Shown: positions 7,389 to 57,167 of the stretch, one piece after another
How the letters are laid out: every line of letters begins with the position of its first letter
Numbering within the stretch: the first letter of the stretch is position 1
Assembly (NCBI RefSeq): GCF_018598185.1
Contig: NZ_JAHESC010000012.1
Coordinates: 1-64,000, forward strand
DNA from: Dawidia soli
GTDB taxonomy: Bacteria > Bacteroidota > Bacteroidia > Cytophagales > Cyclobacteriaceae
Direction of reading: 5' to 3'
DNA: 64,000 bases
The notes under the pieces: generated by a model
The model's database searches: none
What the model was told of the DNA's origin: nothing
What the model saw: only the letters and a program-made list of their open reading frames with translations
Made by a program: the position numbers and the translations under genes

Positions 7389-7391
7389 GGC

Positions 7392-9659: not shown

Positions 9660-12600
9660 GGTGATAGCGCGTTTTTATCTCTTTAACTTTTACACGAGTA
9701 GTCGTACCAAGAGAGAGTGTCTCCTGCCAGACACTGGTCAATGCTCCTCCTGCATCATACTCATAGTATGTATAAATATTGTTATTATCCAGCACGTGCG
9801 ACACCAATCCATGGTCATTGTAGAGATAGGAAATCATAGGTGCATCGCTCCTGTGAGCCCGGAAATCATCTATATAAATAGGCATTGATCCGTTATTGGC
9901 CAGACGGACCTGGACCGCCTTTCGAAGTTCCGTATGCAAAGCATCGACACCGACGGGAATATCCAGCTCACATAAGTACCAGGGCCCCGAACGTTTCATC
10001 GCTGCCCAATCAATAGGATACGGCTTAACAGTCGATCCATTAGGATCATCCACAAACTCGACAGTAACCTGGGGATTGTTCATGCCATATAGCCAGAAGC
10101 TAACATGCAATTGGCCGTCCAGGCTTCGGGGATCCAGCGCTACGTTGATGTCCGCCTTGAGTCCTCGCTTACCAGCCGCCAGCGAAAGCGTCGCATTTCC
10201 GGTATGCGCTTCGTGTGACCGGTCGATCATACCATCACCCAGCATCAGGATGTCGTCTGCTGTTGCGAATTGCCGGTCTTCTTCAAATCCAGAGTAAGCA
10301 AACTCGTCGTACTGCCCATTCGTTACCAGCGCTTCCTGCCGCAGCAGATCTGCAGACATCCGCGTTGAGGTATACAGGCCGTTTTCATCAACGGCCTCCA
10401 ATACGTGGGAATAGACATCGTATAAAGTAGCCGCCTTATTAAACTTCCATCCGGCTGGTGCTCCCGTCTCCCAATCCGCATACTTTTCCCATGCCGTAAA
10501 ATTGGTCTGATTCTCAAGCTTATAGAGGCCTCTGGCCGTCAGAGGAAAAGTATCATCTCCGACAAACACATAATTCGCATTCTTGCGCCAAACTTGCTGT
10601 TCCTTACTCTGACTGTGATCCGGGTAGACCACGTCTATTTGATTTGACCACGTCTGCACATCAGCGGAAATAAGTCCACTATACGTGCCATCAGTGTTCG
10701 CGTCATATACACGCGCCACGGTTTCCTGGGTGAGCATATGCTTGTTGAAGGGATTTTTCAGTTTGAGGCCCATACCCCTAAAACCGCTTGACAACTGTGC
10801 CTCCGTCATGCCCGAATACTCGTAGATCCGGTAGGCAGGTGTTACCTCTGTCATCACCCAGTTATTACCGTTCTTCACCAATGTCTTTGTCGGCCGACCT
10901 GAATAGGAGTCGAACTCCCAGAATTCGGTTTTGGTCTCTGTATCCAGCTTAACATTTCGCTCCGTTATCGTGGTCATCGGGTTTGGGCGATCGATCCGCT
11001 TCAGCTGGATGAATTTCTGGCTGTTGAGAATCTCGTACACCGGCATATTGATCTCAGTAGCCATATACTCCTTGTTCGTGACATGTTTATTAAAGATCTG
11101 CTCGATCGTTCCCTGACGCAAGGCTCTCATCGCCGGTTCGAAAGATTCGTCCACGTCGTCCCACAAATACCCATAAATCGTCTCGCTCAGTAGTGCAAAG
11201 TCTTTTGCGTACCGGCGCTCCGTCAGTATGCTGCCTACACTCGCTACATCATTTGTCAATACCCGGTCCCATTGCTGCGGCGCAGTTCCGCGCTCACGTG
11301 TGAGCATGTCCTCGGTAAAAGTTTTGAAGGTGTATGCCGAATAACTATCGGCTGATTTACCGTCATACGAGTCCTGCACATCTACCCTACCATACATCAC
11401 CCCTGGCGCGGGCGCCTCTCGTCCAAACACGAGTACCGGCATGTACATCGTATTTAATAAAGCTTGAAAGCTGGCCCGGTCACTGGTAAGCTTTACCTTG
11501 TTCGCATCCCAATCTGGTTGACTGGCCAGCGAATTGAAGAATGGAATATCGGTCGGAAAATTGACCGAGACGCTATTAAAGGGAACGTAGCTTGTCACCC
11601 CATTTGTATATTTATATTCGGTCGCGCGTTCATGTCCACCGAATTCGGCCATACGGACGGCTTTGACACGAATTCCCCCGATTGGCTTAGTTGAATTGTC
11701 ACCTAGCGAGACAACCGCTCCGGAAATAAAGTAGCGTTGATATCCAGCAGGCGATCGCCGTGCATTCGACAGATTCGTGGATACTACCGTAATCTGGTCG
11801 GGCAGTACATTGGTTACCGTTACATTCTCGTCAAAAAAGACCGACGTATAATTCGTTGTCATAAATAAGGCTGTCACCGGGATGACACTACCAATAGAAA
11901 AGAACTGCGTTAGGTCAAGACCTTTTTCCTTGAGACGAATATTAAAATCATCGTCAGCTGTTGTGGGAACAACGTCATTGATCCTCTCAATACTAAACAC
12001 GGTATTCTTATTGTAGACGGACTTATCATATGTATTAGCCTCGTATTCCAATTTGATTTTCCCACCGGTCGGTGTACCAATCTCTGTCAGAGACCAGGCA
12101 TCGACGTTTTGCGCTGAGAGACTCGTAATTCGGCGGGTACCTTCGAAGGTTTCACCATTTTCCGTCACCGTCGAGTAGTCACTTTTATAATAGCCCCATA
12201 AATCGTATCGGTCCTTATTGTATCCCGGATTCTTGGCGTATGCAAATGTCACGGGTGGCATCGCCCGCTCACTATTGGGACCTAATATTTCAACCTTCTT
12301 AAGCGTCAGCTTCCCTGTCCGGTAATATGCCACTGGCCCCCCTTTGATATCAGCCAGGGCGTCTGGACACGGCCCCTCATTCCAAACTTGCGAATAAAGG
12401 AAAGAATTCAACGGGTATTTTGCATAAAAGGCATCTTTCCGAGTCTCGTTACAACAGTGCGGTGTAGGCACATAGCAAGATGACGGAACCGAGGGCCATT
12501 CAAAATTTAAATCCGGATCGCTGCAAGCCTCGGTACACGGCTTGCCAGAGCTGCTGTAATAGTCATAGCTATTAGGCACTCCCCATGTAGGCTCCGCGGC

Positions 12601-40742: not shown

Positions 40743-40773
40743 TTGGTATATTCATTTATTCTCAGTAGTTTAT
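40743..40773 (+). promoter_or_regulatory. Possible promoter of the eCIS locus
   Basis: TTGG (40743-40746), 19 bases, then TAGTTTAT (40766-40773). It is a partial match to TTTG / TAnnTTTG. It would give a ~35-base leader before ATG 40815. Confidence 0.38.
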
Positions 40774-41459: not shown

Positions 41460-44400
41460 ATGTTATCCCGGCACCGCATTGAAAAATGCACGTTACAAAT
41501 TACACTTCCTCGGGAAAATAACCTGGAAGTCGTAAGACTCCTCGCACAGGAAAAGCCGCGCATCCTGGATGCGATCCTCGCGGTATTCGATCAGCAGATC
41601 CCCGGCCAGCAGGATATACACCTTTCTAAAATTCACCTGGACCTGGGCACGGTCCCGCGCCGCGATTTTATCCGCAAACTGACCGAGCGGCTTGTCGCTC
41701 TATTATCCGCCGAGCTCAAGCACCTGGCCAGCGATCCGGCGGTTATCCCATCGCCGCCAGCACGAAGCCTGGTTGAATCAAGTACACTTGAAAAACAGGT
41801 ATATCATCGTGTCGACGAAAGTAATTTACGGTCCCTCACAGGCTCCTACAATGAATTGTGGCAGGACTTGCCGGACGGTTCACGCTGGTATATGGATGCT
41901 CCCCTGCGTTGGCCTGCCGTTACCCCTCAGAAAGTACTTTTCATCCTCGCCCATTACTTCAGGTACCGGCGCTATCCGCGTGCATTTGAAGCTTTGCAGG
42001 CGACCGACATCGACATGCTGGTAAACCATCTCGCCGACACCGATGCACCGCTGTTAACCCGTTACTTATCGCGGCGGATCGGATCGCGCGACTTTCAGGT
42101 CAACCTCACGGAGAGCCTGCAGTATAACACGCTCCTCAAAGTAGCGTACCTCTTACCGGTCGTCAATATTTCGGTGAGACCGTGGTTGGATTGGATTGCG
42201 GGATTGGACGTAGACGGGATTTCCACCTGGAAACATACCCCTCCTGGCAAGTTGCTTCTTTTACAATACCTCACCGAACCTTCCGCCGCGGGCAAGACAA
42301 AGCTCCAGGAGGTATACCTTCGGGCTGCCACAACGTCTTCCCATGATCATGCTGCTGTGTTATTATTCACCGGGCCGCACTTCGATCGTTCCGTCGATAC
42401 AACAACCGCTACCCCGCTCCGGGCGTCTGGCATCGTCCACACGACAGCATCTTCTCCTGACCTCCGGGATGTGTTGCAGGCTTTGAGAAACACTCCCGTC
42501 CTTCGTCATGGCATCGTCGGGCGATTGGACCTGCCGGCATTGCGTGCCATCGCAAGATCCATGGGCCTGGCGCACGGCAGCTACGCGCAGTGGCAGGCCG
42601 TTGTAGGGACAATAGAGAAATCCTATCTGGCGCGCGGTGTCATTCTACCGGACAGTGTACTGCATACCCTGCATGGTCGGTATCTTGATCTGATCAGTAC
42701 TCACGACAAAAGCAGTCTGACATTTGAGCGACTCAAGCAGCTCCTATTCCCGGCACTACAGCGCCATCCGGATCTGCAGCACGCATTACCTCGCGATCGG
42801 GAAATAAGACGCGATGCCTCCGTACGGCCGATTGACGCCATCGCATCCAACCTCCGACACACTGCGGATATTGCGGCAAAACAGCCGGATGTCCATGCGT
42901 TTGTTATTGTTCGGTTCTATTACCAATACGGATACTTTCCCCGGGAAGCACACTACCTCCAGGCGGCAGACCTGGAAGCACTGATGTTGTATCTCTTTGC
43001 CTGGAACAGCGAGAAGGTGACGCAGTATATGGCAACGCTGCTGCGCAGCCCTACCTTCCGTCTACGCCTGGCTGAAACGCTTTCCGCAGAGACCTTGAAA
43101 ACTATTTTGTCCGCGTCCGGCAGCGTCGCCGACGCGTTGGCAGAATGGGCGCTGTGGGAGCAGGTCCTCGAATTTTCCCTCGGAAAAACCTCTCTCCCTA
43201 CGCTTGCCGACAAGATCGCTTTGTTGCAGTATCTCCATGCGTCCACGCTTTTGGTACGCGAGGGAATTATATACGAGTACCTGATGTCCCGCTATGCGCT
43301 GCAGGGAGTGCGCTTTGTGCCGGATGTGATCGTGGACGCGTTCGGCAAGCTCGATACCCCGAATGATACCGCTACTGCGGCCCGAACCAGGATAGTCGGT
43401 TTCCTGGAGGGATTCTCCGCGCGTGAGGACAACAGCCACCCGGAGGCCCCGCACGAGGGGCTGAGGACGTTCCGTCAATACGTTGCGGTATCATCCGACG
43501 CGCCTGTTGAGCCCCTGGTTTCCAAACACCCGGCGTACGCCGACTGGATCGCTTTTCAAACCCGCGTGCGCGGGGCGGTGGCGGATATTCCGGCGCGGGA
43601 AGATCTATTGAACCAGCTTCCGTTTTTGTACTTCGAATTTTTGCGCCGGCACGGCCATGAACCCTGGAGCCCGGAAAGGTTTCAGCGGTATATGATGCAG
43701 GAGGTTGACCGGCTGCTGGCCGCACTTGTTCCTGCCGGCGATATCATTCCCCTGCGGTTACGGATCGACGCCGCGGCGGTGTCTGCAACGTTACATTGGA
43801 AGTCGATTCTAGCAGAGATGATCCGCCATGGCATCGCTCCTGTAGTAACAAAAATACCAGCGCTCCAGCATCCGAGCGTGATCGACGCGTTCTGGGATAC
43901 CGCGCTGGACGACGAGACGGCGGTCTTTGCCTTATTCTATGAAGCTGACGTAAACGCCTCGTTTTGGCCGGTGCTCGCCGAGACCCTTTCGTTCGCGCAG
44001 CTCCATCGGCTTTTGAGCATTCTCGCGCCGTTTCAATACCAGAGCCTTTTGGAAACGGGAGTACTATCTGAAAACGTTGGACCTGCGCGGAGTATATTTT
44101 CCCTTGCGTTTAAGACACTACATCCTGCGCGCTATGCGATTGGAACGCAGAAGCTCATCCTGCAGATCCTCCGTGGAGCCACTCCCCTTCTACGCAGTGA
44201 TGACGTAGTGGCGCAGGTATCCGATGTTCCGATCATACCGGGATCTTCCCCGCCCGCAGGGGAAGACAGTCTTCCCCTGACGATGCTTGTACGGGCGATC
44301 ACTACCCGGGATACAGCCGGGGCACGGGAGCACTGGGGACTACTCTATCGCCAGCACCGGAATGTTCTATTACAATACGTGCGAACGCAATGGCCGTGGA

Positions 44401-47400
44401 TTGCGCTGCGCACCAGTCTGGCGCGGGATGCCGACCTTGATGTATTGACCGGTCTCGCGTCATCGCTGGGACACGACAAGGCCACCTATGACACCTGGCA
44501 AAACTTTATAGCACCCTACCGGCATCAGGAACACGTACTGAGACAAGTCCATCGGCATTATTTTGAGTTCCTGTCACATACATCCTTCGATCACTCCGCA
44601 GTTGTCTTGGCCCAATGGCTGGAAGATCACGGCGCTGAGGGACAGATCACCCAACGAACCGACGCCGATCATGACGTGCCCCATGATGTATTCCCTGGCA
44701 GCACCGATGGACGAACGATAGCGCCACCGGCTGCCGGACATAGCCAGAATCGTAACATTAAGCCTGAACGGGAACTTCCCCCTGCTGACGAAAGCGATGT
44801 CGGTGCACGGGACGAACCGGTTGACGACACTCCTGCGCTACTGGCAGCGCTCCATGCGGCCGCGGTCGAGGCGCCGGCCTCGGCAGCCGTCCTTTGGCAA
44901 TCGCTCTATCGCCGGCATCCATCCACACTGGTACGTTATATCCGATCGCATGGAGATCCGGAGCCTCTCCACGATAGCCTGGCGTTCGACGCCAACATTG
45001 AGATAGTACTTCATCTTTCTGCGTTGCTGTACCAGGACGATGACACATACCCCGCGTGGCTGGCGTTTACCGACCGTTATCGCGACAATGCCCTGTTGCT
45101 CCGAAAAAGTTACCGGTACTATTTTGGTTTCCTGCGAAGCGTACGGCAAGGTTCGCCGCCTGCACAGTCGTTTACAAAATGGTTAGAAGCTTTGGTCAAC
45201 ACCGTTGAATCCAGGCGAAATGATTTAGCGGAACATTCTGTACCGCTACGCTCCACGGGACCAGCCAGACTGCCGCATGCCGTGCCTTCGCCGGTAGCGC
45301 ATATTACTCCCACATCGGCATACGACACGGCGGACGTGATCGTGTATTATCTCAAGACAGGAAAGTTTATACCTGGCGGCGGCGCGACCGATGCGGCGAC
45401 CTTGACAACACTCACGGCACAATACTTTTCGGAAACACGGCCTGCTGATAACCTGGCAATCGCCGCGGCACTCGATAGCCCGGAGGCTTACCGCCGTTTA
45501 ACACCGCTGCTCTCCCCGATCGGACTATCGTTGTTGCACGAACACGGATCGGCTGCCCATGCGCCGCTGCCTCACTATACAACCAGCCGGATAAAGACGT
45601 TGCAGCAAATCGAGGCAACGCTCCATTATTGGCTATACGGCCAATGGCCCTGGTGGTATACGCCTGCACAGCCGCCGGCAGAAACGCTTGCTGTTGTTCT
45701 TGAGAACCACCTGGAATTGCTTGTTCAACGACTGGAGATGTCCGGGCACGAGGTGGTGATCGTGCAAAAGATCTTATCCTCCCTTTCGCCAGCGGTTTTC
45801 AGGGCGATGATCGTTCTTCGGTTTCCGTCCGTAGCCGGCTTTGTAAAGCGCGTCCTGTTGCTGCTGGAAAAAATGCTGGTACCCTTGCATGAGACCGGTA
45901 CACTTCATTTGCAGGCGATGTTCTCCGTTGTGTATGAATACCTGGCTCATCATGCCGATCCTTTTTCAGCGCTCCATTTTCTTGCTCATTTGGCCAGGCA
46001 TGGCGCAGCGATGATCAACGTTACCGCATTGGCGTGGATCGACAGTATGCTTTCCACGGCGGCGACGATGTTGCAGGAGGATCGTTCGTTTTGGTCGTTG
46101 CAGGAGCTTCTCATTTCTTTGCGCACGGCGGCCTCACAACCAGGGGAGACAACGGATGGTATACAACCGGTCACACCGGCTATACCCGCTGCGGGTTCTT
46201 CGGCCTTGCCGGTCGGCGCTGGCGCGGATGGCAGCTCCCGCGTGTCTCTGACATTTAAAGAGGCGTTTGTGGCCTATCTTCGCATGGGTATTATACCCGT
46301 CCATACGCAGGAAAGCCAGGGTGGTAAAACGGCGCTTATGCGGCAGCTGCAAACCCTCGCCGTGCACGAATCCGCCTGGTTGAGCACGACGCTGAAAAGT
46401 CTTTTTATGAATACCGCCGCGTTGGACGAATACATCTTGCGCGCGGACCCGTCGATCACCATCCGTCTGATCCGGGCGTTGGCCGGCACACGCCGGCACG
46501 AGTTTACCCGATGGCGACGGGGTATGGAAAGGTTCCTGGCTGCCTTGTATGAGAAGCCCACGCCGCTGGAGACCGCTTCACAGTCGAGCCGGGCGCTCCT
46601 GCAACTACTCTTGCAACGGCCGGGGTATAAGATCACGGCCATTCAATATGCGCAAACGGTATTTGACCACGGCCTGCGCCACAAGACTATAAAAGGCCCC
46701 GACATACTGCTGGAAAAAATCCGTCAGTACAAAGCAGCAAACGGTACGGTCGGGGACTTTGCGATCTCCCTGGAGGTGGCCCATGCGCACCTGACAGCCC
46801 GTGCGCGGACGTCGCTGCTGCAGTCGCTGACGAACCCCCACGCGGAAACCGAGCGGACTGTCGCTGTGCCCGAAAAAGGCGCCCGCATCGCGGTAGCGGG
46901 CGCGGGCGTTGTGCTGATGGCGCCCTTCTTTTATATGTATTTCAACCGGCTGGACATGACCGAGGACAATCGTTTCAAATCGGACGCTTTCGCCCTGCGC
47001 GCGGTTCATTTGCTGCATTACCTGGTCAGCGGCGGCACGGACGCTCCGCTGCCCTCCCACGCCCTGCTGTATAAGCTGTTGTGCGGCGTCGACTTTCACG
47101 TCCCGCTGGACGAGGGGATTGTGATGACCGACCACGAGAAACAAGTATCCGAAAGCCTGTTGCAGGGCGTATTACAGAACTGGACGTCGCTCAAATCCAA
47201 ATCGGTTGATTCGTTGCGGGAGACATTCCTGCAGCGGGCGGGTCATCTCGAAGAAAACGATATCGGCTGGAGTCTGACGGTTGAACGCCGGTCGGCGGAC
47301 ATTCTGGTGGACTGGATCCCCTGGTCGTTCAGCCTGATCAAACTCTCGTGGATGGAAAAAAGCCTGACCGTCAACTGGCAGTCCGACCAATACCGTGATC

Positions 47401-47420
47401 TCATGCTAACCCAAACCTAA
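41460..47420 (+). CDS. eCIS tape-measure protein (Afp14/Pvc14-like)
   Basis: 1986 residues. The N-terminus (HRIEKCTLQITLPRENN, then IHLSKIHLDLGTVPRRDF) and the C-terminus (DHEKQVSESLLQGVLQNW, SVDSLRETFLQRAGHL, DILVDWIPWSFSLIKLSWM) are signatures of the contractile-injection-system tape-measure family. In between there is a helical solenoid. A ~70-residue module of the form YYxxGxxP-DxxxLxxxL-RLxxxLs recurs near residues 157-230, 476-550, 1290-1355 and 1600-1673. A second module (LYRxHxxxLxxYxR to HRHYFEFL/YRYYFGFL) occurs near 940-1060 and 1125-1243. An AGAGVVLMAPFFYMYF hydrophobic helix lies near residue 1815. The protein sets tube length during assembly. It abuts the ATPase gene with zero spacing. 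Confidence 0.94.
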   Translation: MLSRHRIEKCTLQITLPRENNLEVVRLLAQEKPRILDAILAVFDQQIPGQQDIHLSKIHLDLGTVPRRDFIRKLTERLVALLSAELKHLASDPAVIPSPPARSLVESSTLEKQVYHRVDESNLRSLTGSYNELWQDLPDGSRWYMDAPLRWPAVTPQKVLFILAHYFRYRRYPRAFEALQATDIDMLVNHLADTDAPLLTRYLSRRIGSRDFQVNLTESLQYNTLLKVAYLLPVVNISVRPWLDWIAGLDVDGISTWKHTPPGKLLLLQYLTEPSAAGKTKLQEVYLRAATTSSHDHAAVLLFTGPHFDRSVDTTTATPLRASGIVHTTASSPDLRDVLQALRNTPVLRHGIVGRLDLPALRAIARSMGLAHGSYAQWQAVVGTIEKSYLARGVILPDSVLHTLHGRYLDLISTHDKSSLTFERLKQLLFPALQRHPDLQHALPRDREIRRDASVRPIDAIASNLRHTADIAAKQPDVHAFVIVRFYYQYGYFPREAHYLQAADLEALMLYLFAWNSEKVTQYMATLLRSPTFRLRLAETLSAETLKTILSASGSVADALAEWALWEQVLEFSLGKTSLPTLADKIALLQYLHASTLLVREGIIYEYLMSRYALQGVRFVPDVIVDAFGKLDTPNDTATAARTRIVGFLEGFSAREDNSHPEAPHEGLRTFRQYVAVSSDAPVEPLVSKHPAYADWIAFQTRVRGAVADIPAREDLLNQLPFLYFEFLRRHGHEPWSPERFQRYMMQEVDRLLAALVPAGDIIPLRLRIDAAAVSATLHWKSILAEMIRHGIAPVVTKIPALQHPSVIDAFWDTALDDETAVFALFYEADVNASFWPVLAETLSFAQLHRLLSILAPFQYQSLLETGVLSENVGPARSIFSLAFKTLHPARYAIGTQKLILQILRGATPLLRSDDVVAQVSDVPIIPGSSPPAGEDSLPLTMLVRAITTRDTAGAREHWGLLYRQHRNVLLQYVRTQWPWIALRTSLARDADLDVLTGLASSLGHDKATYDTWQNFIAPYRHQEHVLRQVHRHYFEFLSHTSFDHSAVVLAQWLEDHGAEGQITQRTDADHDVPHDVFPGSTDGRTIAPPAAGHSQNRNIKPERELPPADESDVGARDEPVDDTPALLAALHAAAVEAPASAAVLWQSLYRRHPSTLVRYIRSHGDPEPLHDSLAFDANIEIVLHLSALLYQDDDTYPAWLAFTDRYRDNALLLRKSYRYYFGFLRSVRQGSPPAQSFTKWLEALVNTVESRRNDLAEHSVPLRSTGPARLPHAVPSPVAHITPTSAYDTADVIVYYLKTGKFIPGGGATDAATLTTLTAQYFSETRPADNLAIAAALDSPEAYRRLTPLLSPIGLSLLHEHGSAAHAPLPHYTTSRIKTLQQIEATLHYWLYGQWPWWYTPAQPPAETLAVVLENHLELLVQRLEMSGHEVVIVQKILSSLSPAVFRAMIVLRFPSVAGFVKRVLLLLEKMLVPLHETGTLHLQAMFSVVYEYLAHHADPFSALHFLAHLARHGAAMINVTALAWIDSMLSTAATMLQEDRSFWSLQELLISLRTAASQPGETTDGIQPVTPAIPAAGSSALPVGAGADGSSRVSLTFKEAFVAYLRMGIIPVHTQESQGGKTALMRQLQTLAVHESAWLSTTLKSLFMNTAALDEYILRADPSITIRLIRALAGTRRHEFTRWRRGMERFLAALYEKPTPLETASQSSRALLQLLLQRPGYKITAIQYAQTVFDHGLRHKTIKGPDILLEKIRQYKAANGTVGDFAISLEVAHAHLTARARTSLLQSLTNPHAETERTVAVPEKGARIAVAGAGVVLMAPFFYMYFNRLDMTEDNRFKSDAFALRAVHLLHYLVSGGTDAPLPSHALLYKLLCGVDFHVPLDEGIVMTDHEKQVSESLLQGVLQNWTSLKSKSVDSLRETFLQRAGHLEENDIGWSLTVERRSADILVDWIPWSFSLIKLSWMEKSLTVNWQSDQYRDLMLTQT

Positions 47421-48785
47421 ATGAATACTTTTCAATTCGATACCGATGGCAACATTGCCGGCCATAGCCTGGGCACCATCCGGGAGGATCTTTCGTGGCT
47501 TACCAGGATCATCGAGTTCCGTTTGCAGCAGCACTTCAGCGGCGTGGACGACGACGATTTCATGGCGAGCCTGCCCCCACCGGATTTATCCGGTGACGAA
47601 TCGTTCTATGCCTATGTGATCAAAAAATACAACTTTGGTACCCCGGAGCGGGTCATCCTGCTGATGGCGCTGGCGGTGCATGTGGCGCCGGTGTGCTTTG
47701 ATATCTTCTTTCTGAAGAACGAGAACCTCAACCGGGGGTATACCGAGTTCGGGGGCATTATCGGCACGGCGCATAGTGGGTTTATCCCGACGGGTGAAAC
47801 GCTTTCCTTTTTGCTGTGCGGGCGGAATCTCGAAAAGCGGTTCCAGCTGATCGAATATTTTTCCGACTATCACCCGTTCTACACTCAGAATATACTGCAT
47901 CTTTCCGACGTAAAGGATGGCGACCCGATCTTTAGCGGCGCGGTCACCATCAGCAAAGAATACCTGACCTTGCTTACGCAGGGCCGGCCCTATTATCCAC
48001 ATTATACTTCATCGTTTCCGGCCAAGCGCCTTTCGACTTCCCTGACATTTGCGGACGCCGTCTATGACGAGCACACATCACAGGCGCTGGAGGACGTGCG
48101 CGGTTGGATCCGGCATGGCAGGTCGATCATGGCCGATTCGCGGCTGCGCACCTTTTTAAAACAAGGTTATCGGGTATTGTTCTACGGTCCACCGGGCACG
48201 GGAAAAACGATGACAGCCGCCATGCTGGGCCAGGAAGCCGGCCTGGATGTATACCAGGTCGACCTTTCGGCAGTAGTATCGAAGTACATTGGCGAAACCG
48301 AGAAGAATCTCGCCAACGTCTTCAATATGGCCGAAAACAAGCAGTGGATACTATTTTTTGATGAGGCCGACGCGCTTTTTGGCAAGCGTACACAGACGCA
48401 AAGCAGCAACGATCAGTATGCCAACCAGCAGGTGAGCTATTTATTGCAACGTATTGAAGACTTCAACGGCACGGTGGTGCTGGCCACCAATTTCAAGGAT
48501 AACATCGATACGGCGTTTCTGCGACGGTTTCAATCCATCGTCTTCTTTCCGAAGCCGCGAATGGAACATCGGCTGGCCTTGTGGCGAAAATATTTTTCAC
48601 CGTTTGAGATCGAGGCCGACCTGGAGGCCATTGCCCATGAATTTGAATTGACGGGCGGCAGTATCATCAACGTATTGCGGTATTGCTCCATTGCGGCACA
48701 ACGGCGCGGTGCGGCTGTCGTGACGACGGAAGACCTTTATAAGGGAATTACCAAGGAATACCAGAAGGAAGGGGTCACGATATAG
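47421..48785 (+). CDS. eCIS AAA+ ATPase (Afp15/Pvc15-like)
   Basis: 454 residues. The N-terminal ~200 residues form the family-specific helical/winged part (LSWLTRIIEFRLQQHF, PERVILLMALAVH). The AAA+ module has Walker A GPPGTGKT at residues 256-263, Walker B ILFFDEADALFG (Asp314, Glu315), sensor 1 TVVLATNFKDN and the arginine finger region FLRRFQSIVFFP, then a C-terminal lid. All catalytic residues are present. In Afp and PVC this ATPase is needed for particle assembly, possibly to unfold or load cargo or the tape measure. Its ATG follows directly after the tape-measure stop (47420/47421), so the two are tightly coupled. Confidence 0.96.
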   Translation: MNTFQFDTDGNIAGHSLGTIREDLSWLTRIIEFRLQQHFSGVDDDDFMASLPPPDLSGDESFYAYVIKKYNFGTPERVILLMALAVHVAPVCFDIFFLKNENLNRGYTEFGGIIGTAHSGFIPTGETLSFLLCGRNLEKRFQLIEYFSDYHPFYTQNILHLSDVKDGDPIFSGAVTISKEYLTLLTQGRPYYPHYTSSFPAKRLSTSLTFADAVYDEHTSQALEDVRGWIRHGRSIMADSRLRTFLKQGYRVLFYGPPGTGKTMTAAMLGQEAGLDVYQVDLSAVVSKYIGETEKNLANVFNMAENKQWILFFDEADALFGKRTQTQSSNDQYANQQVSYLLQRIEDFNGTVVLATNFKDNIDTAFLRRFQSIVFFPKPRMEHRLALWRKYFSPFEIEADLEAIAHEFELTGGSIINVLRYCSIAAQRRGAAVVTTEDLYKGITKEYQKEGVTI

Positions 48786-48888: not shown

Positions 48889-50115
48889 ATGTTTGCTATG
48901 TACAACACGGATGTGCTTTTGCGCCATATCATGACGTGTCAGCACGCGATCCATATTCATCTCAATACAACAGTCGACACCAGTTTATTAGATGCCTGCA
49001 TCCGGCAACTGGAAAAGGGCCTGGCAGTCGTATTGGTGATCAGCGACCTGAACCGGCCGGTCCTCGACAACAATCCTTTCCTGTTAAACCGTTGCCTGCA
49101 ACTGTGCCAGAAGGGCGCTACCCTATACACTGCGGATGCTCTCCCGGACACTCTATTATATACGTGCATCTCCGATTTCAGAACCGTATGTCATGTTCAT
49201 TCCTCCGACACCGTTATTCATACGGAGGCGGCGTACGAGGCCGTCCGAAAGGCTGTGCATCATTTTAACACACTTGTTCGCAGCAGTACACCCTTTCACG
49301 CATCTTCCGAAGGCATCCGGATAACGCTGGACGTGTCGGAAGACCTTGTACCGAGAGACTCCGCTGTCAGCCTGACGTGGCACGTACAGGGAGCGGACAA
49401 GGTCTTTATTGAAGGGCTTGGTGCGGTGGAACACGCGGGGCGGCGCCAGGTATTGCTGACCGAGACGACGCTTTTTAAAGTTGGCGCCTATAACGACCGG
49501 AGCGCGTGTATGGCGGCTACCCAGGTGTGGGTGACGCAGAAAACGATCATCGACTATGACATTGGCTTTATCAGCGCACAAACCAACGCTTTTTACAGTC
49601 TCGTAAAAGCCGGCAATGACAGTGACACCTACGGCACCATGGCGGGCAACCGCCTCTGCCTGCGCTGGCGTGTGCTGCATGCCGCCCGTGTGCACATCCT
49701 TCCTTTTGACCTTACCGCACACGAGGGAGAGTATACTTTCTCCACCACCGCATCGATGGACATTTGTATTACGGCGCAAGTAGATCAACAAACGCTCACC
49801 CGAAAAATAACCCTGCTGGCGTTTCCCGTCCCGGTATTTCGCGACAGGCTTTTTTCATCGGCGTTTCCCACACATGTACCCACGCCGGAAGCCGATGCCA
49901 CGCCACGGCTGATGCTCACGCTACGTGATTCCGAAAAACGCTACCAGCAGCTGCTTAAAAAGATACATGCCTACACGTCTGACAGAACCGGCCCCAAACC
50001 AACGCTATCAACATTGAACGCCTTCGTTTTTCAATACCTGAAACGGATGAACGCAGGGAAGAATGGTGTACGCCATGCGATCGAATCTATCGAGCACTAT
50101 TATGAACAACGCTAA
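48889..50115 (+). CDS. Hypothetical protein, PLD-like and Ig-like domains, in eCIS locus
   Basis: 408 residues, no signal peptide (start ATG 48889 or 48898). Residues 1-130 read like a phospholipase-D-type alpha/beta half (HIHLNTTVDTSLLDACIRQLEKGLAVVLVISD, then QKGATLYTADALPD), but there is no HKD catalytic motif, so any such domain is a binding scaffold. Residues about 145-230 form an Ig-like fold (SAVSLTWHVQGADKVFIEGLG, TTLFKVGAYN). A second beta-domain spans 240-315 (RLCLRWRVLHAARVHILPF). A helical C-terminal tail (345-408) ends in HAIESIEHYYEQR. It is the first gene of the envelope module and overlaps the DUF4407 gene by 14 bases, so it may be that protein's cytoplasmic partner. The domain calls are tentative. 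Confidence 0.7.
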   Translation: MFAMYNTDVLLRHIMTCQHAIHIHLNTTVDTSLLDACIRQLEKGLAVVLVISDLNRPVLDNNPFLLNRCLQLCQKGATLYTADALPDTLLYTCISDFRTVCHVHSSDTVIHTEAAYEAVRKAVHHFNTLVRSSTPFHASSEGIRITLDVSEDLVPRDSAVSLTWHVQGADKVFIEGLGAVEHAGRRQVLLTETTLFKVGAYNDRSACMAATQVWVTQKTIIDYDIGFISAQTNAFYSLVKAGNDSDTYGTMAGNRLCLRWRVLHAARVHILPFDLTAHEGEYTFSTTASMDICITAQVDQQTLTRKITLLAFPVPVFRDRLFSSAFPTHVPTPEADATPRLMLTLRDSEKRYQQLLKKIHAYTSDRTGPKPTLSTLNAFVFQYLKRMNAGKNGVRHAIESIEHYYEQR

Positions 50116-51280
50116 ACCTGCAGATGCCGCCCCGCCCCCACGCCGGATCAGCCGCGTGATGCGCTTTTTTATCTTCTGTTCGGCCGCGAATAAAGAGATC
50201 TTACAGCGTTGCCCGTTGTCCGAGTATCACAAATATGCCAGCATCGGCGCTACGATATTCTTTACCGGTGTCCTGGCCGGATTATCGGGGGGCTATGCGC
50301 TCTATACGGTATTCGATAGCGTGGTTGTGGCCATCGTGCTGGGTGTGTTCTGGGGCACGTTGATCTTCAACCTCGACCGGTTTATTGTGAGCACGATCAA
50401 AAAGGGATCCACGCGGTATAGCCAGGTGCTGCAGATCATTCCGCGTGCGCTGCTGGCCATATTCCTGGCGATCGTTATTTCCAAACCGCTGGAGCTTCGC
50501 ATCTTCAAACAGGAAATTGACGAGGCGCTGCACCTTGCCTGCCTGGCCCGGCTGGAGGCCGTTAACAACGATTACACCAAAAAGATCGACCGCTGGCACC
50601 TGCTGCTGCAACAAATGAAAGAGAAGGTGGAGCAGCGTTACGTCCTCCGCGAGAAGTATTACGAAGAATATCGCTGCGAGTGTGACGGATCTTGTGGCAC
50701 CGGAGCGCGCGGTATCGGGTCGGAATGTTTGCGAAAGGAGAAGAAATATAATAAGGCCGACCAGGAGTATAAAGACGTTATCACCGAGCAGCAAGCCTTG
50801 ACCGCACAAGCGGGGCTGGCCATCCGTGCCCTGGAGCAGGAACGCGACGGGTATCAGGCTTCGCTCAGGAACACGTTCGCCACGGGGTTGCTGGCGCAGC
50901 TCGAAGCACTGCACCAATTGCCGCAAGGGCCTTCCCTGGCCATTATATTCCTGCTCATCTTTATAGAAGTGTCGCCGATCCTGGCCAAGCTGCTTTCGCC
51001 GGCGGGGCCCTATGACCATGTGCTCAAAACCCTGGAGTATGATTATGAGATCGAAGAGCTTTCCTCCATCAACATCCGTAACCAGAAGCTCAACAATCAG
51101 CTGACGTTGCTGGCCAGTGTCGAGCAGCAGCAGGTGGAGCAGCAGCTTAAACACAACCGCGAAACGATCAACCTGATCGAAAAGGCGCACCAGGAGCTTG
51201 TCCGTGAGCAGTTATCGCTGTGGGTAGAGCAGGAAAAGATCAAGCTGCGGGAGAACGCATGGAGTCAACAAGAGGCATAA
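50102..51280 (+). CDS. DUF4407 inner-membrane protein of eCIS locus
   Basis: 392 residues from ATG 50102 (overlapping the previous stop by 14 bases); an upstream ATG at 50063 is less likely. After a Pro-rich start comes MRFFIFCSAANKEILQRCP, the DUF4407 opening. Three membrane helices lie at about 45-140 (including VLGVFWGTLIFNLDRFIVSTI and IPRALLAIFLAIVISKPLEL). A long coiled-coil soluble segment (150-275) contains a Cys-rich CECDGSCGTG loop near 200, and a fourth membrane helix (SLAIIFLLIFIEVSPILAKL, about 285) is followed by a cytoplasmic coiled-coil tail (330-392). DUF4407 proteins recur in Bacteroidota eCIS-like loci but their role is not established. This one is the obvious membrane anchor of the module. 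Confidence 0.88.
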   Translation: MNNAKPADAAPPPRRISRVMRFFIFCSAANKEILQRCPLSEYHKYASIGATIFFTGVLAGLSGGYALYTVFDSVVVAIVLGVFWGTLIFNLDRFIVSTIKKGSTRYSQVLQIIPRALLAIFLAIVISKPLELRIFKQEIDEALHLACLARLEAVNNDYTKKIDRWHLLLQQMKEKVEQRYVLREKYYEEYRCECDGSCGTGARGIGSECLRKEKKYNKADQEYKDVITEQQALTAQAGLAIRALEQERDGYQASLRNTFATGLLAQLEALHQLPQGPSLAIIFLLIFIEVSPILAKLLSPAGPYDHVLKTLEYDYEIEELSSINIRNQKLNNQLTLLASVEQQQVEQQLKHNRETINLIEKAHQELVREQLSLWVEQEKIKLRENAWSQQEA

Positions 51281-51296
51281 CCCGGTGGCAGCACGC

Positions 51297-52070
51297 ATGA
51301 AAGCGATATTCCTTCTTCTGACGGTTATGGCGATGGCCCGCCCGGGCCGGTCGCTGCAGGCGGACTCGGTGGTATGCTCTCCGGAATTCAGCAACGTGCT
51401 GACGGCGAACTTTACCACGTTCCTCAAACGCGACGTTACGGGTACGTTTGCCGTAAAGGACGGTGACAGCATTCACTATGTCTTGTTCCAGGAGAACCTG
51501 TACGGCGCTACGTTTTCGCTATACGACCCCGCGGGACAGGAGATCATAAAGACACGTACACGGGCAAAAGTGCTTTCGGACAAGTTAAAGGGCCGTGAGC
51601 CGGGTAATTATTACTTCAAGATCCGGTCGGGGCGTCCGTTGCCAAATTCGTTTATCCTGATGCTGAACGTACGCAACTGTCTTCCGTACACGCCCGAGGC
51701 GACGCACGACAGTACCCCTACCGTCATCGCGATGGACACGGTCACCTCCGTCAAACTCGATTCGACCGTGTACCTCGCCAGCAAGCTCAATTTAAAGAGC
51801 AAACAAAGCATACGCATCGAGGTCGATTCTTTGCAGGGTTTATTGCAGTACGAAATCCGGTCTGCCAGCGGGCCGATCCATTACAGTTTCGCTGACGCGG
51901 CGGCAAGAACCGTAAAAAACGGCGTGGGTATATATCAGACGGGCACACTTCCCTTCCGGCATTCCTTCTACAGCTTGTGGCTGGAGAACGACGACCCGGT
52001 GGCGGGTAAACATGTGCGGGTGACCATTGTGCAACAGGTACGGAAACGTAAAACCCCTCTCGTAAAATGA
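51297..52070 (+). CDS. Exported beta-sandwich protein of eCIS envelope module
   Basis: 257 residues from ATG 51297; GTG 51285 would add four residues. The signal peptide is MKAIFLLLTVMAMARPGRSLQA. The mature part has two similar beta domains. The first (about 35-125) has a PPC-like pattern: GTFAVKDGDSIHYVLFQ, FSLYDPAGQEI, REPGNYYFKIRSG. The second (150-250) has VYLASKLNLKSKQSIRIEV, YEIRSASGPIHYSF and YSLWLENDDPV. There is no lipobox, so it is probably soluble in the periplasm or secreted. Its stop overlaps the ATG of the GH18-like gene (ATGA), indicating translational coupling, so the two products may act together. No known family is assigned with confidence. Confidence 0.75.
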   Translation: MKAIFLLLTVMAMARPGRSLQADSVVCSPEFSNVLTANFTTFLKRDVTGTFAVKDGDSIHYVLFQENLYGATFSLYDPAGQEIIKTRTRAKVLSDKLKGREPGNYYFKIRSGRPLPNSFILMLNVRNCLPYTPEATHDSTPTVIAMDTVTSVKLDSTVYLASKLNLKSKQSIRIEVDSLQGLLQYEIRSASGPIHYSFADAAARTVKNGVGIYQTGTLPFRHSFYSLWLENDDPVAGKHVRVTIVQQVRKRKTPLVK

Positions 52071-53713
52071 AAGCAACGCTACACGATATCGTCCGGCGCG
52101 GTCTGCTGGCACTGCTTTGCAGTTGTCTGTCTGGTATGGCGATCGCGCAGACCTCTTATACCGTTGACCCCGCCAACCCCTCTGACACCGTTGCCTGGAA
52201 AAGAGAACGGCAATTTGCCACGGGCAGCGCATTGAACCAGTACAGTAAGCTTTTTAAAACACTTCACGGTAAGAGCCGCAGCGTCTATTTCCGTAAAACG
52301 GAAGGTTTGCAAGAAATTGTGTACAACGACGAAAGCCAATCGTATTACGGCAAGCGGAACACTCCTTCGCAGCTGGCTGAGCACACGGAGGTGATGGGCT
52401 GGCACCTGCACTGGATGGAAGCGGAATGTCCCTATTACCCCTACCGGCTTTTCTCCACGCTGAGCTTCTTTTCATACGACATCGACTCTCACAGCGGCGC
52501 GTGTACCGATGCCGATGCCATACGGCATTGGCTGACATCACCGGTGCATGACTCCGCACGCGTACACCATACCCGGATGCTGCTGACGCTGACCAGCTAC
52601 GGCACGGCACGCAATAAAACGTTTTTGAATAACCGGCAGGCGTGGATGCTCCTGGCCGACAGCGTCCGGTCGCTGATCCGGTTGAAAAAAGCGCACGGCA
52701 TCGACCTCGACTTCAATGGCTTGTCGCCGGAAATGAAAAAACCTTTTACGGACTTTACCCGATTCATCCGCAACAAGCTGGGCGACAGCACCATCATTAC
52801 CTTGCAGATACCCTATAACGCCGCCCTGAATGCCTACGATCTGAACAGTTTGAAACCGCTGATCAATACCTTTATCGTACAGGGCTATGATTATGAAAAC
52901 CCTACTTGCGATAATGCCCCGCTGCCCATGGCGCCCCTGCAATCTCCGGGTGAATGCCCCAGCCTTGGGAAAACGACCGATGTACTTTTACAAACCTTGC
53001 CGCCAGGCGACATCGTGATCGGATTCCCCCTGTATGGCACCCGTTGGCGTCGCACGGCGGCCGGGTGGACGTCGCTGGATTACCTGCCGTACGAAAACAT
53101 ACGGGCGCAGTACAATGTGAATCACGAAGAGTATATCGAAAGTTCCAGCGGCAGCAGCATGGTGCGCGTCGGAAACGCCATACCGTACGAAGTGGTGTGG
53201 TATGAAGGGCATGAAAGCTTACGTCGCAAATTCACGTGGATCAAAGAAAAAGGACTTCACGGTGCAGGGCTTTGGGGTCTCGGTTACGATGGCAACCATC
53301 CGGAGATCTGGCAGGCCGTCGAGGCACACTTTACCGTATCGTCGTGGCAAAAAGTAGAACCCATCGGGTATGCGAACGGCCGAACGTATTCGCTGGTGAC
53401 CACCCTGCATCGATACCGCAAGATCATCGGCGTGTCGCTCTTTATCATGATCGGATTCTTTCTGCTGGGGCTTCTTCTTTCGCTGCTGGACTGGCGTGTA
53501 CGCGGCGTATTTTTCCAGAGCGGCGCATACCGTGGCCTGTGGGCATGCGGCTTGATCCTGGCGGCGTTACTGGCCGTTTACCTGTTTTTCGACGAGGGCG
53601 GTCCCGCCGGACATGCCGGTTTCAGCATGTTTGTGTACGGCATACTTTGCGGGGCGGTCGTTGTCTATATCACCAGCACGGCGTACCTGCGTTACAAAAA
53701 CAAACTACCGTAA
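52067..53713 (+). CDS. Membrane-anchored GH18-fold protein lacking the catalytic Glu
   Basis: 548 residues. Signal sequence 1-27, a GH18 TIM barrel of about 90-430 on the periplasmic side, then three membrane helices (about 447-470, 488-507, 515-538). GH18 marks: MGWHLHWMEAECPYY (first strand), LLTLTSYG, the motif region HGIDLDFNG (210-218), IVIGFPLYGTRW and GLHGAGLWGLGYDGNHPEIW (last strand). In active GH18 enzymes the motif is DGxDxDxE; here the acid/base Glu is Asn217 (AAT, 52715-52717) and the first Asp is His210, while Asp213 and Asp215 remain. So the fold is kept and hydrolysis is unlikely; binding of peptidoglycan or another GlcNAc glycan is a reasonable inference. It overlaps the previous gene by 4 bases and the next lies 3 bases on. 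Confidence 0.88.
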   Translation: MKATLHDIVRRGLLALLCSCLSGMAIAQTSYTVDPANPSDTVAWKRERQFATGSALNQYSKLFKTLHGKSRSVYFRKTEGLQEIVYNDESQSYYGKRNTPSQLAEHTEVMGWHLHWMEAECPYYPYRLFSTLSFFSYDIDSHSGACTDADAIRHWLTSPVHDSARVHHTRMLLTLTSYGTARNKTFLNNRQAWMLLADSVRSLIRLKKAHGIDLDFNGLSPEMKKPFTDFTRFIRNKLGDSTIITLQIPYNAALNAYDLNSLKPLINTFIVQGYDYENPTCDNAPLPMAPLQSPGECPSLGKTTDVLLQTLPPGDIVIGFPLYGTRWRRTAAGWTSLDYLPYENIRAQYNVNHEEYIESSSGSSMVRVGNAIPYEVVWYEGHESLRRKFTWIKEKGLHGAGLWGLGYDGNHPEIWQAVEAHFTVSSWQKVEPIGYANGRTYSLVTTLHRYRKIIGVSLFIMIGFFLLGLLLSLLDWRVRGVFFQSGAYRGLWACGLILAALLAVYLFFDEGGPAGHAGFSMFVYGILCGAVVVYITSTAYLRYKNKLP

Positions 53714-53716
53714 GGC

Positions 53717-53950
53717 ATGAGAGAGATTATCGCCAAAGAGCTTCTGTATTTCTTTTTCGCCGTCATCACCGCTATACCGGTGGCCTTTCTCTTTTTGCAC
53801 CTGCTGCAGCTGGACCCGGAGCACACCCGCATGGGCGACGATGAACACGTATTGGAAGTCGACCTGATGCTGATCGGCGGCGCCCTGGGATTTCTGGGGG
53901 TGTATGTGATGCGGCTGACGGTTTGGGCCGTAAAACAAATTGTTCACTAA
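53717..53950 (+). CDS. Small two-helix membrane protein of eCIS envelope module
   Basis: 77 residues. A first membrane helix (residues 8-30: LLYFFFAVITAIPVAFLFLHLL), an acidic loop (32-48: DPEHTRMGDDEHVLEVD) and a second helix (49-73: LMLIGGALGFLGVYVMRLTVW). The loop is likely cytoplasmic or periplasmic with both ends on one side. It starts 3 bases after the GH18-like gene and ends 19 bases before the DUF4255 gene, closing the envelope module. Too small for family recognition; its fixed place suggests a partner of the DUF4407 or GH18-like membrane proteins. Confidence 0.75.
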   Translation: MREIIAKELLYFFFAVITAIPVAFLFLHLLQLDPEHTRMGDDEHVLEVDLMLIGGALGFLGVYVMRLTVWAVKQIVH

Positions 53951-53969: not shown

Positions 53970-54533
53970 ATGATCCAACACGTGTTACCGGTCGTTGTCG
54001 ACGAGCTCAATGAATACCTGAAGTCGCAATTCAATGCCGTCGAGGACAAGGCTATACTTTCAGCCATCGTAGAGCAAGACGGCAGCCTGGCCCTGGAGAG
54101 CGGCAACAAGATCGTGGCAACATTGATCTTTGTCGACAAGGACGTTACCTATAAAAGCGGCCCGGGCACGACATCGTCAGGATTGGAGATCCTTCAATAC
54201 TCGCCACCCCTGAATATAAACCTGACGGTCATGTTTTCCGCCCTTTTTAGCCGGAATCACTACATTGAATCCCTGCGCTACTTATCGGGTGTCATCTACT
54301 TTTTTCAATATAAACCGCTTTTCACACGACAAAACACACCGAAGCTGTCCAGGGGCGCCGACAAGATCTATTTCGACCTGCTTTCGGTATCGCCCAGCGA
54401 CATGATGAATTATTATTCTATGCTCGGCATAAAATACGTCCCATCGGTCGTATATAAAGTGCGGATGCTGACATTCTCGCAAGACAACGTGGTGGCCGAT
54501 CTGCCGGCGATCCGCGGCCTGGAGACAAAATAA
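53970..54533 (+). CDS. DUF4255 tail-completion protein (Afp16/Pvc16-like)
   Basis: 187 residues matching the DUF4255 family: VLPVVVDELNEYLKSQF at the start, AILSAIVEQDGSLAL, then LNINLTVMFSALFSRNHYIESLRYLSGVIYFFQYKPLF, the conserved block seen in eCIS cap proteins, and YSMLGIKYVPSVVYKVRMLTF near the end. In Afp the related protein Afp16 caps the tube and sheath and fixes tail length. It lies just before the structural genes. A 90-base gap with a good promoter follows. Confidence 0.93.
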   Translation: MIQHVLPVVVDELNEYLKSQFNAVEDKAILSAIVEQDGSLALESGNKIVATLIFVDKDVTYKSGPGTTSSGLEILQYSPPLNINLTVMFSALFSRNHYIESLRYLSGVIYFFQYKPLFTRQNTPKLSRGADKIYFDLLSVSPSDMMNYYSMLGIKYVPSVVYKVRMLTFSQDNVVADLPAIRGLETK

Positions 54534-55676: not shown

Positions 55677-57167
55677 ATGCCACAAGTTTATGCCACCCCA
55701 GGGGTGTACATTGAAGAAAAGAGCGCATTTGCCAGCTCTGCGGTACCCGTTGCGACAGCGGTGCCGGCGTTTATCGGGTACACGGAAAAAGCGATCCGGA
55801 ACAACAAGTCGATCATCAACCTTCCGACCCGGATCACCTCGTTGAACGAGTATCATGAGATCTTTGGCGGCGCGCCAAAAATTCAATTCGATCTGCTGGA
55901 CGGCGAGCATGGTGAACCCTTTAAGGTCGAGGTAAAACGTGAAACCAATTTTTACCTGTATAACACGCTGCGCCTGTTCTTTTCCAATGGTGGGTCTACC
56001 TGCTACATCATTTCCGTCGGAACGTACGACTACACGAAAGGTGTAGAGACGGCCACGCTGAATCCGGCAGAAAACGATAAGGGTCTGAAAACGCTGTTGA
56101 AAGAAGTGGAACCCACCATGGTGGTGATCCCCGACGCGGTACTGCTCGAAGAGGCAGACTGTTTCAGCCTGCAGCAGGCCATGGTCATGCATTGCGGCTT
56201 TGACATGCGCAACCGCGTGGCATTGCTGGATGTATACAACGGCTACCGGCCCCGGACCATGGCGGACGACGATGTCGTGACGCGGTTTCGCGAGGGCATC
56301 GGCATCAATCACCTGCAATGGGCGGCGGCGTATTATCCCTGGGTGGAGAGCACCGTGGTGCCCGTCAGCGAAATAGACATGGCCAACATTGCCAACCCGG
56401 ATGTATTAAAGAAAAAGCTGACCGAATCGCTGAGCCAGGACAAGGCTGATGAAAAAAAGAACGCCGCTATTACACAGGAGATCGAAAAGATCGGCTCCGC
56501 CGATACCGATGCCGTGGCCGTTCACCAAACCCTGCTGACGGCGGTGCCATTGTACAAAGCCATTCTACTCGAGATCCGGCAAAAATTAAATATACTTCCC
56601 CCCAGCGGCGCCATGGCCGGTGTGCTGACGATGGTCGACAACGCTGTGGGCGTGGCCAAATCGCCTGCCAACGTATCGATGGGTTCGGTAGTAAAACCCA
56701 CGGTGAACATCACGAACGGCATCCAGGAAGATCTGAACCTGCCGCTCAACGGCAAAGCCGTGAACGCCATTCGCAGTTTTCCGGGGAAAGGAGTCGTGGT
56801 CTGGGGTGCACGCACGCTGGACGGCAACAGCCAGGACTGGCGATACCTCAGTGTACGCCGTACGGTCATCATGATCGAACAGTCGCTGAAGATCGCGGCG
56901 GAAATGTATGTATTCGAGCCCAACGTATCGGGTACCTGGGTGACGGTACGCGGCATGATGAGCAATTTCCTGACCGACCAATGGAAGCGTGGCTCCCTGG
57001 CCGGCGCCGTGCCCGAAGACGCGTTCAGTGTCGACATCGGTCTGGGCGTAACCATGACCCCTACCGATATCCTGGACGGTATCATGCGGATCACGGTGAA
57101 GCTGGCCGTTGTGCGGCCCGCGGAATTTATCGTAATCACCTTCCAGCAACAAATGCAGAAATCATAA
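55677..57167 (+). CDS. eCIS contractile sheath protein
   Basis: 496 residues. The opening PQVYATPGVYIEEKSAF and the motif VPAFIGYTEKA are typical of phage-tail and eCIS sheath subunits. The middle (about 90-330) is the exposed domain, with a Lys/Glu-rich loop near 240-270. The C-terminal core has INAIRSFPGKGVVVWGARTLDG, WRYLSVRRTVIMIEQSL, GTWVTVRGMMSNFLTDQWKRGSLAG and the final strand PAEFIVITFQQQMQ that interlocks neighbouring subunits. It polymerises around the tube and contracts to drive it out. Afp and PVC carry three sheath paralogues; this locus shows only one. Confidence 0.96.
   Translation: MPQVYATPGVYIEEKSAFASSAVPVATAVPAFIGYTEKAIRNNKSIINLPTRITSLNEYHEIFGGAPKIQFDLLDGEHGEPFKVEVKRETNFYLYNTLRLFFSNGGSTCYIISVGTYDYTKGVETATLNPAENDKGLKTLLKEVEPTMVVIPDAVLLEEADCFSLQQAMVMHCGFDMRNRVALLDVYNGYRPRTMADDDVVTRFREGIGINHLQWAAAYYPWVESTVVPVSEIDMANIANPDVLKKKLTESLSQDKADEKKNAAITQEIEKIGSADTDAVAVHQTLLTAVPLYKAILLEIRQKLNILPPSGAMAGVLTMVDNAVGVAKSPANVSMGSVVKPTVNITNGIQEDLNLPLNGKAVNAIRSFPGKGVVVWGARTLDGNSQDWRYLSVRRTVIMIEQSLKIAAEMYVFEPNVSGTWVTVRGMMSNFLTDQWKRGSLAGAVPEDAFSVDIGLGVTMTPTDILDGIMRITVKLAVVRPAEFIVITFQQQMQKS

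Follow-up and report, generated by a model that had tools for sequence, protein, structure and literature searches.

The window analysed here is the first 64,000 nucleotides of a 158-kb contig (NZ_JAHESC010000012.1, C26) from the 7.48-Mb genome of Dawidia soli, a member of the Cytophagales. From about position 40743 it carries a co-directional operon for an extracellular contractile injection system (eCIS), in which five tightly linked genes, here called g1 to g5, stand between the genes for an AAA ATPase and the tail terminator Pvc16. They encode a soluble protein with a phospholipase D (PLD) fold, a DUF4407 membrane protein, two exported proteins and a small protein with two transmembrane (TM) helices, and their predicted topology takes in the cytoplasm, the inner membrane and the periplasm. 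An earlier examination of the letters of this DNA (the sequence-only reading) had proposed that these genes are an envelope module of the eCIS that docks the particle to the cell's own envelope or lets it out; its coordinates and gene overlaps for the five genes proved correct when re-read. The comparisons below confirm that the five genes are a conserved envelope module tied to eCIS. The presence of this module in operons without the usual tail fibre suggests that the machine stays docked in the producing cell and is not released.

Conservation and position of the module

Pvc16_N served as the marker of eCIS loci. It was found in 50 of 395 genomes of the same class, and 59 matched places were taken with up to 10 kb on either side. 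An alignment of four g2 sequences led to 80 named loci, 15 with the module and 65 with DUF4407 only; one of the 15 duplicated a contig already fetched, which left 14 in use. Forty further regions were added to the stretches, which total 73, and L105, the same contig as L042, was dropped from alignments.

Eighteen of the 73 stretches contain g1 to g4, 10 contain only g4 and/or g5, and 45 contain none of these; among the 59 eCIS places the corresponding figures are 4, 10 and 45. Recurrence in 18 genomes rules out a chance clustering of the five genes. The fifth gene is present in 14 of the 18 full modules, and three of the other four stretches end inside g4. The claimed link to eCIS held up, with the module directly adjoining the AAA ATPase gene, the Pvc16 gene or both in 15 of the 18 genomes and the ATPase gene lying directly upstream of g1 in seven. 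No flanking eCIS gene was seen in L096, L099 and L100, whose genomes have Pvc16 matches, two over the cut-off and one partial at E = 3e-4. The module keeps its place while the order of the operon shifts, standing before Pvc16 in some genomes and after the tape measure-ATPase pair at the operon end in L101, L103 and L107.

Genome-wide surveys covered g5, g1 and DUF4407, GH18 proteins being too common for the same to be done with g4. Because only the first candidates in each genome were scored (13 for g5, 4 for g1 and 5 for DUF4407), absences in these surveys are not exhaustive. The g5 profile (A6) matched 15 of the 395 genomes, all of them among the 50 with Pvc16, and in 14 of the 15 g5 adjoins Pvc16. 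Since those 14 had already contributed to the profile, what the survey adds is the lack of any scoring match among the 345 genomes that have no Pvc16. Full-length g1 was found in four of the 395, all eCIS carriers and all four among the sources of the profile. DUF4407 is far more widespread, occurring in 95 of the 395 (72 over the cut-off), mostly outside eCIS, and adjoins Pvc16 only in the window genome, G121, G108 and G354. Whether homologues of the module occur mainly outside eCIS, which would have told against the sequence-only reading, has a divided answer: they do not for g5, full-length g1 and the eCIS clade of g2, and they do for the DUF4407 family at large.

Layout of the operon

The operon begins with an eCIS_core gene and runs through the tape measure, the ATPase, g1 to g5, Pvc16_N, a 344-aa protein and the sheath to two gp19-type tubes, CIS_tube, a VgrG-like spike, a PAAR-like gene (our own label for the gene between the spike and gp25), gp25 and Baseplate J (Table 1). 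Sheath, tube, Pvc16, VgrG-like spike, gp25, Baseplate J, AAA ATPase and tape measure thus lie in one cluster, as in an eCIS-type operon. The gene that we take to be Alg12-like is labelled by its position. An Rfam scan of 38000-64000 gave no match at the gathering threshold, and neither promoter-like sites (18 against 13.9, sd 3.6, in shuffled sequence) nor terminator-like sites (26 against 18.3, sd 4.9) were far above the shuffles.

Table 1. Module genes and neighbouring features in the window and on the contig beyond it.
Feature	Position	Strand	Basis
Tape-measure protein	41460..47420	+	PF19268 2e-86
AAA ATPase, Afp15/Pvc15-like by position, 5' neighbour of module	47421..48785	+	Pfam AAA 8e-32
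g1: soluble; PLD-fold domain without HKD, two Ig-like domains, helical C-terminus	48889..50115	+	predicted structure, Foldseek
g2: DUF4407 inner-membrane protein with Cys-motif loop; likely start 50102	50063..51280	+	PF14362 1.2e-74
g3: exported beta-rich protein	51285..52070	+	no Pfam match; iterative profile
g4: exported GH18-fold protein, three C-terminal TM helices, Asn for catalytic Glu	52067..53713	+	PF00704 2.5e-21
g5: 77-aa two-TM protein	53717..53950	+	no Pfam match; profile A6
Pvc16_N tail terminator, 3' neighbour of module	53970..54533	+	PF14065 1.2e-24
Contractile sheath	55677..57167	+	PF17482 1e-7
Baseplate J / Alg11-like, runs on to contig 65259	61549..64000	+	E 2e-90 to 7aeb
Crown-like fibre, 254 aa, beyond window	contig 65321-66085	+	next after Baseplate J
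Alg12-like gene, beyond window	contig 66049-68811	+	label by position
nSTAND1 NTPase, beyond window (L002:8808-11093)	contig 68808-71093	+	directly after Alg12-like gene

Fibres and NTPases that accompany the module

Most operons without the module carry one gene of 700-1700 aa between Alg12 and the tape measure. One such gene was tested and matched All3314 of the thylakoid contractile injection system (tCIS; 3e-49) and a PKD-domain chain of 9wt0 (1e-43), which appears to be the AlgoCIS fibre Alg19. A profile of this Alg19/Cis13-type fibre was built from 14 operons and scored per operon wherever an operon reached through Baseplate J and Alg12. The fibre is present in 17 of 22 module-free operons (14 of the 17 being sources of the profile) and in none of the 12 full-module and 7 g4/g5 operons. 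The Alg19/Cis13-family fibre by which we would recognise a released eCIS is accordingly missing from all 19 module operons and from the window genome, Afp13-type fibres falling outside this test. Searched genome-wide, with G041 and G115 outside the search, 17 of 18 full-module and 8 of 9 partial-module genomes gave no fibre; the module genomes that did, G428 and G173, have two and three Pvc16 loci, respectively. The same search elsewhere was positive in 5 of 5 fibre controls and in none of seven genomes of the type VI secretion system subtype iv (T6SSiv) family and three other fibreless genomes.

Two further genes follow the module. A crown-like fibre gene adjoins Baseplate J in 19 of 19 module operons as against 6 of 20 without the module (in this count and that of the Alg12-tape measure gap G021 could not be scored, and G111_C17, with no tape-measure match, was left out); a similarity to All3316 of the thylakoid system covers the first 40 residues of its product (E = 1.3e-4). 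An nSTAND1 NTPase gene is found in 13 of 18 full-module stretches and in none of the 55 others, many of which are module-free and shorter, which may depress their count. Three full-module loci (L175, L179 and L180) hold an insertion of 7.7-8.0 kb between Alg12 and the tape measure; besides a STAND NTPase it encodes a protein of 630-850 aa and one of 646 aa that looks like a transporter, presumably SulP.

g1 and g2 and their relatives outside eCIS

The AlphaFold2 model of g1, with a predicted local distance difference test score (pLDDT) of 83, has a PLD fold, two Ig-like domains and a helical tail, and Foldseek returned PLD folds and Ig tandems. The protein has no Pfam match and no kinase match, and a sequence search of the PDB gave only sub-threshold PLD matches (best E = 0.047) plus one other. 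The HKD pattern is missing from all 18 module g1 proteins and from L217, where the genome gave no Pvc16 match and a g1-type PLD/Ig protein accompanies DUF4407; it is kept in the PLD proteins of L216, L220 and L228. Partial g1 matches adjoin DUF4407 genes outside eCIS, and the part that matches is the Ig-like one.

No PDB entry was matched by the g2 sequence, even at E values as high as 1. All 18 module homologues share the Cys motif CEC[DE]G[ST]CGT...G.G.EC, and the string CECDG/CEC[DE]G is missing throughout two sets of other DUF4407 proteins, one of 95 and one of 10. The loop that bears the motif precedes the last helix and would face the periplasm, provided that the N-terminus is cytoplasmic. 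The module DUF4407 proteins make up one monophyletic eCIS clade, with a support of 99, in a tree of 44 sequences.

Outside eCIS, DUF4407 is found in a different company. At L216:2872-9128 a PLDc_2 protein (with DnaJ), TerY (PADLOC 6e-48), PP2C (6e-10) and a kinase with Ig-like repeats (STK_OB 1e-49) precede the DUF4407 gene, and at L220:4821-11066 DUF4407 comes last, after PLDc_2, VWA and PP2C_2 and then a kinase match too weak to pass the Pfam cut-off. At L221:6407-9618 only the kinase before DUF4407 was confirmed, the vWA and phosphatase genes being our own reading with no PADLOC match, and in other loci an Ig-repeat protein is followed by DUF4407. Because g1-like parts and PLD proteins accompany DUF4407 in these kinase/phosphatase loci, we infer that g1 and g2 were remodelled from part of a TerY-P-type envelope system. 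The module and the TerY-P-type loci share a DUF4407 membrane protein beside an Ig-repeat protein, together with a PLD-fold protein; they differ in that the PLD protein of the TerY-P-type loci is separate and keeps its HKD motif (L216, L220), and in that those loci have kinase, PP2C and TerY/vWA genes and no Cys motif. None of g1 to g5 has a Pfam match to a TerY vWA, PP2C or kinase domain, and PADLOC returned nothing for g1 or g2. Profiles of g3, g4 and g5 had no match in the DUF4407 loci L216-L224 and L229.

g3, g4 and g5

An iterated profile unites g3 with exported proteins of 316-589 aa that occupy the same slot in all 18 full loci, and the idea that g3 is unique to the window was dropped once the profile had joined them. 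Its AlphaFold2 model (pLDDT 74) is beta-rich, with a first domain that is GOLD-like at moderate confidence. The profile of g4 identifies a GH18 fold; the best solved match is YdhD (1e-40), and chitinases rank between it and the spore cortex enzymes (YaaH 8e-32, cortical-lytic enzyme 1e-25). Hydropathy predicts three C-terminal TM helices. The catalytic Glu, whose position is taken from the GH18 motif, is kept in 16 of 23 g4 proteins and replaced in seven, by Asn in the window, Thr in three, Phe in one and Gln in two. The small g5 protein has two predicted helices with an invariant Arg. Matches of the module to PHROGs include neither holins nor endolysins; for g4 they do include a family of minor tail proteins (1e-4), and the remaining matches are to families of unknown function. 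General family scans with Pfam and NCBIfam assigned none of g1 to g5 to a Tss family (TssJLM, TssNOPQR).

A lipobox-like motif stands near the N-terminus of 6 of 23 g4 and 5 of 18 g3 proteins, three of the latter five being doubtful. A lipidated N-terminus combined with C-terminal TM helices could allow g4 to span the periplasm. In a variant found at L051 and L057, a 480-aa single-TM protein (with a 552-aa protein as well in L057) takes the place of g1 to g3 and is followed by g4, which has Gln for the catalytic Glu, and a two-TM protein. In genome G328 a g4-g5 pair (L215:6740-9211) is followed by a small protein that we read as PAAR-like.

A possible docking and firing-control platform

The lack of a target-binding fibre, the crown-like gene beside the cage gene and the set of proteins reaching from cytoplasm to periplasm are, taken together, best explained by a particle that is docked to the envelope and controlled from it. 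We would give about an even chance to the proposition that the module serves as a platform at the inner membrane, on which an eCIS-derived particle stays docked within its producer and by which its firing is controlled. On this proposal g2 would sit in the inner membrane with its Cys-rich coiled-coil loop in the periplasm, and g4 and g5 would pair as a further unit in the membrane, its GH18 domain binding wall glycan and in some species perhaps cutting it. The g3 protein would be a periplasmic partner, and g1 a cytoplasmic adaptor that links the baseplate or crown to g2. Whether the loaded particle is held back or let go would depend on a signal from the wall or membrane, which would gate the linked nSTAND NTPase as a switch, and the particle would then fire outward through the producer's own envelope in the manner of a type VI secretion system. 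More tentatively still, this may be an undescribed mode of cell-attached contractile injection system (CIS), one in which a trans-envelope complex derived from a TerY-P-type sensor and a wall-binding GH18 protein, and not from Tss proteins, has replaced the tail fibre. Such a complex would consist of the pseudo-PLD/Ig adaptor, DUF4407, the periplasmic beta protein, the GH18-TM protein, the two-TM protein and the nSTAND NTPase.

The docking put forward in the sequence-only reading gains from the distribution of the target-binding fibre family (0 of 19 module operons against 17 of 22 without the module); the docking step itself is still conjectural. A number of observations weigh against it. Any contact between the module and the baseplate is hypothetical. 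The module is not always intact, with g5 missing from its place in L099, g1 and g2 split off and divergent in L098, and g5 divergent beside an otherwise isolated Pvc16 gene in G041 and G115; in G328, the sole g5 genome outside the profile, a distance of 267 kb separates the g4-g5 pair from the eCIS operon. Fibreless operons without the module in cis exist (G312, G344, G290, G085_C86 and G328), so loss of the fibre does not require the module, and the nSTAND1 count is open to the effect of stretch length given above. When VgrG, hub and Pvc16 were concatenated for trees, the 17 operons with the fibre came out as a single group (support 91), and the mutual exclusion of fibre and module may therefore reflect one or two events; the group also holds the fibreless G290 and several unscored operons, and the other fibreless operons, whether or not they have the module, fall outside it. 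The distributions of module and fibre largely track one phylogenetic split. DUF4407 and g1-like domains recur in kinase/phosphatase operons of genomes without Pvc16. Lastly, profiles of the module genes found nothing in the T6SSiv family, neither for g2 (0 of 10 genomes, with three positive controls matched), nor for g5 (0 of 10 at E = 0.001, with one match containing stop codons at 0.0035, for a profile that did match in the survey of the 395 genomes), nor for g4 (0 of 7, in a search without a positive control).

Alternative roles for the module

The kinase/phosphatase settings of DUF4407 allow the module to be seen as a signalling or regulatory one with no physical docking, in which the TerY-P-derived g1 and g2 together with nSTAND sense envelope stress and govern how cytoplasmic particles are expressed, loaded or contracted, or else guard the producer from self-firing. 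DUF4407 follows PLDc_2, TerY/vWA, PP2C and kinase genes outside eCIS (L216 and L220; in L221 the kinase only), the Ig-like part of g1 matches genes adjoining DUF4407 elsewhere, and nSTAND1 is linked to most full modules. Against these stand a g1 with neither a kinase match nor an HKD motif, the confinement of g3, g4 and g5 to loci other than the DUF4407 ones searched, and a loss of the tail fibre that regulation would leave unexplained; on balance we consider this account rather unlikely. Less probable again is a role in cargo handling, with envelope proteins for effector export or immunity and no part in particle position. eCIS_core (DUF4157) genes do lie near several module loci, which speaks for such a role, but their number and place vary while the order and position of the module stay the same, and we think this a very improbable account.

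The other half of the earlier proposal, that the module lets the particle out, would have g4 hydrolyse peptidoglycan and g5 act like a holin, the two together opening the envelope for release. The g4 profile does match the sporulation glycosylase YdhD best, with spore cortex enzymes also ranking high and chitinases between them, g5 is a small two-TM protein, and most g4 proteins keep the catalytic Glu. This exit reading is nonetheless weakened because that residue is lost in 7 of 23, the window included, and no holin-like family was matched. The three TM helices at the C-terminus of g4 fit it poorly, and a particle so released would be without an Alg19-type fibre; we regard it as improbable. 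A phage lysis cassette was ruled out by the loss of the Glu and the lack of a holin or endolysin match in PHROGs, the window g4 having Asn where a wall hydrolase would be expected to have its intact catalytic residue.

Comparison with other contractile systems

The T6SSiv apparatus is described as attached to the inner membrane via a site at the Alg11 cage (PMC8894135), and for Amoebophilus, where attachment is likewise reported to be to the inner membrane, Aasi_0556 has been proposed as a candidate anchor (PMC12210884). The T6SSiv of Amoebophilus asiaticus and Cardinium resembles the system described here in being eCIS-derived, in having no Alg19/Cis13 fibre (0 of 7 genomes) and in its compact Alg12-tape measure order. 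Over the 40 kb examined, G604, taken as A. asiaticus, shows the expected cluster, with neither a tail fibre nor any module gene. The tree places T6SSiv outside the full-module clade, together (support 82) with G085_C86 and with G173_C79, the bearer of a g5-like gene. What is shared with the cell-attached T6SSiv named in the sequence-only reading is a fibreless, eCIS-derived operon; no g2 or g5 homologue was found in 10 genomes of that family, and on this ground the module was set aside, as far as homology is detectable, as the T6SSiv's own anchor. If docking is right, the system would act as a cell-attached one, and membership in T6SSiv would not follow from its genes. At L231:17822-18955 the Amoebophilus protein in the CIS_tube/LysM slot is 377 aa long, compared with 225 aa in the window, and has two hydrophobic segments; this longer form could bear on membrane contact in T6SSiv.

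The BIS systems of gut Bacteroidota are fibreless CIS that have been suggested to be T6SSiv-like and perhaps not released (PMC12210884). The window system shares the lack of a fibre; G344 and similar operons with neither fibre nor module may be of the BIS kind. In Streptomyces coelicolor the CIS cluster, which has no clear tail fibres, also codes for the membrane protein CisA, on which firing within the cell depends (PMC12237407). Both systems thus pair a membrane protein with such a cluster, but CisA is by description one single-pass protein, whereas five different proteins are found here. The tCIS of Anabaena is anchored to its producer's membrane via an extension of Cis12 and the TM domain of the tail fibre Cis13 (PMC8894136); the crown-like fibre described here is similar to a short protein of this system, All3316, but tCIS has the All3314-related fibre family that is missing from module operons. 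In AlgoCIS of Algoriphagus machipongonensis, which has an Alg11-like baseplate protein akin to the one in the window, the Alg19 fibre binds target cells (PMC13314943), and it is this type of fibre that module operons are without. Literature searches, thin on subscription papers, gave no paper pairing DUF4407 with contractile injection and none pairing Marivirga with a contractile injection system, and a search for membrane-anchored CIS surfaced only the CisA work.

If true, the docking proposal bears on the means by which eCIS-type particles are either released or kept attached to the cell that makes them. The module genes together with a missing Alg19/Cis13-family fibre would predict attachment from sequence, for example in Marivirga aurantiaca S37H4 and Belliella aquatica CGMCC 1.12479, and with named genes and strains and a reciprocal fibre mark the question of attachment is open to experiment. 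DUF4407 for its part gains genomic settings, beside TerY-P-type genes outside eCIS and inside a CIS operon here.

Elsewhere in the window, positions 2883-15171 of the minus strand hold three very large adjoining open reading frames (1501, 755 and 1841 aa), the middle one with a weak match to DUF6443.

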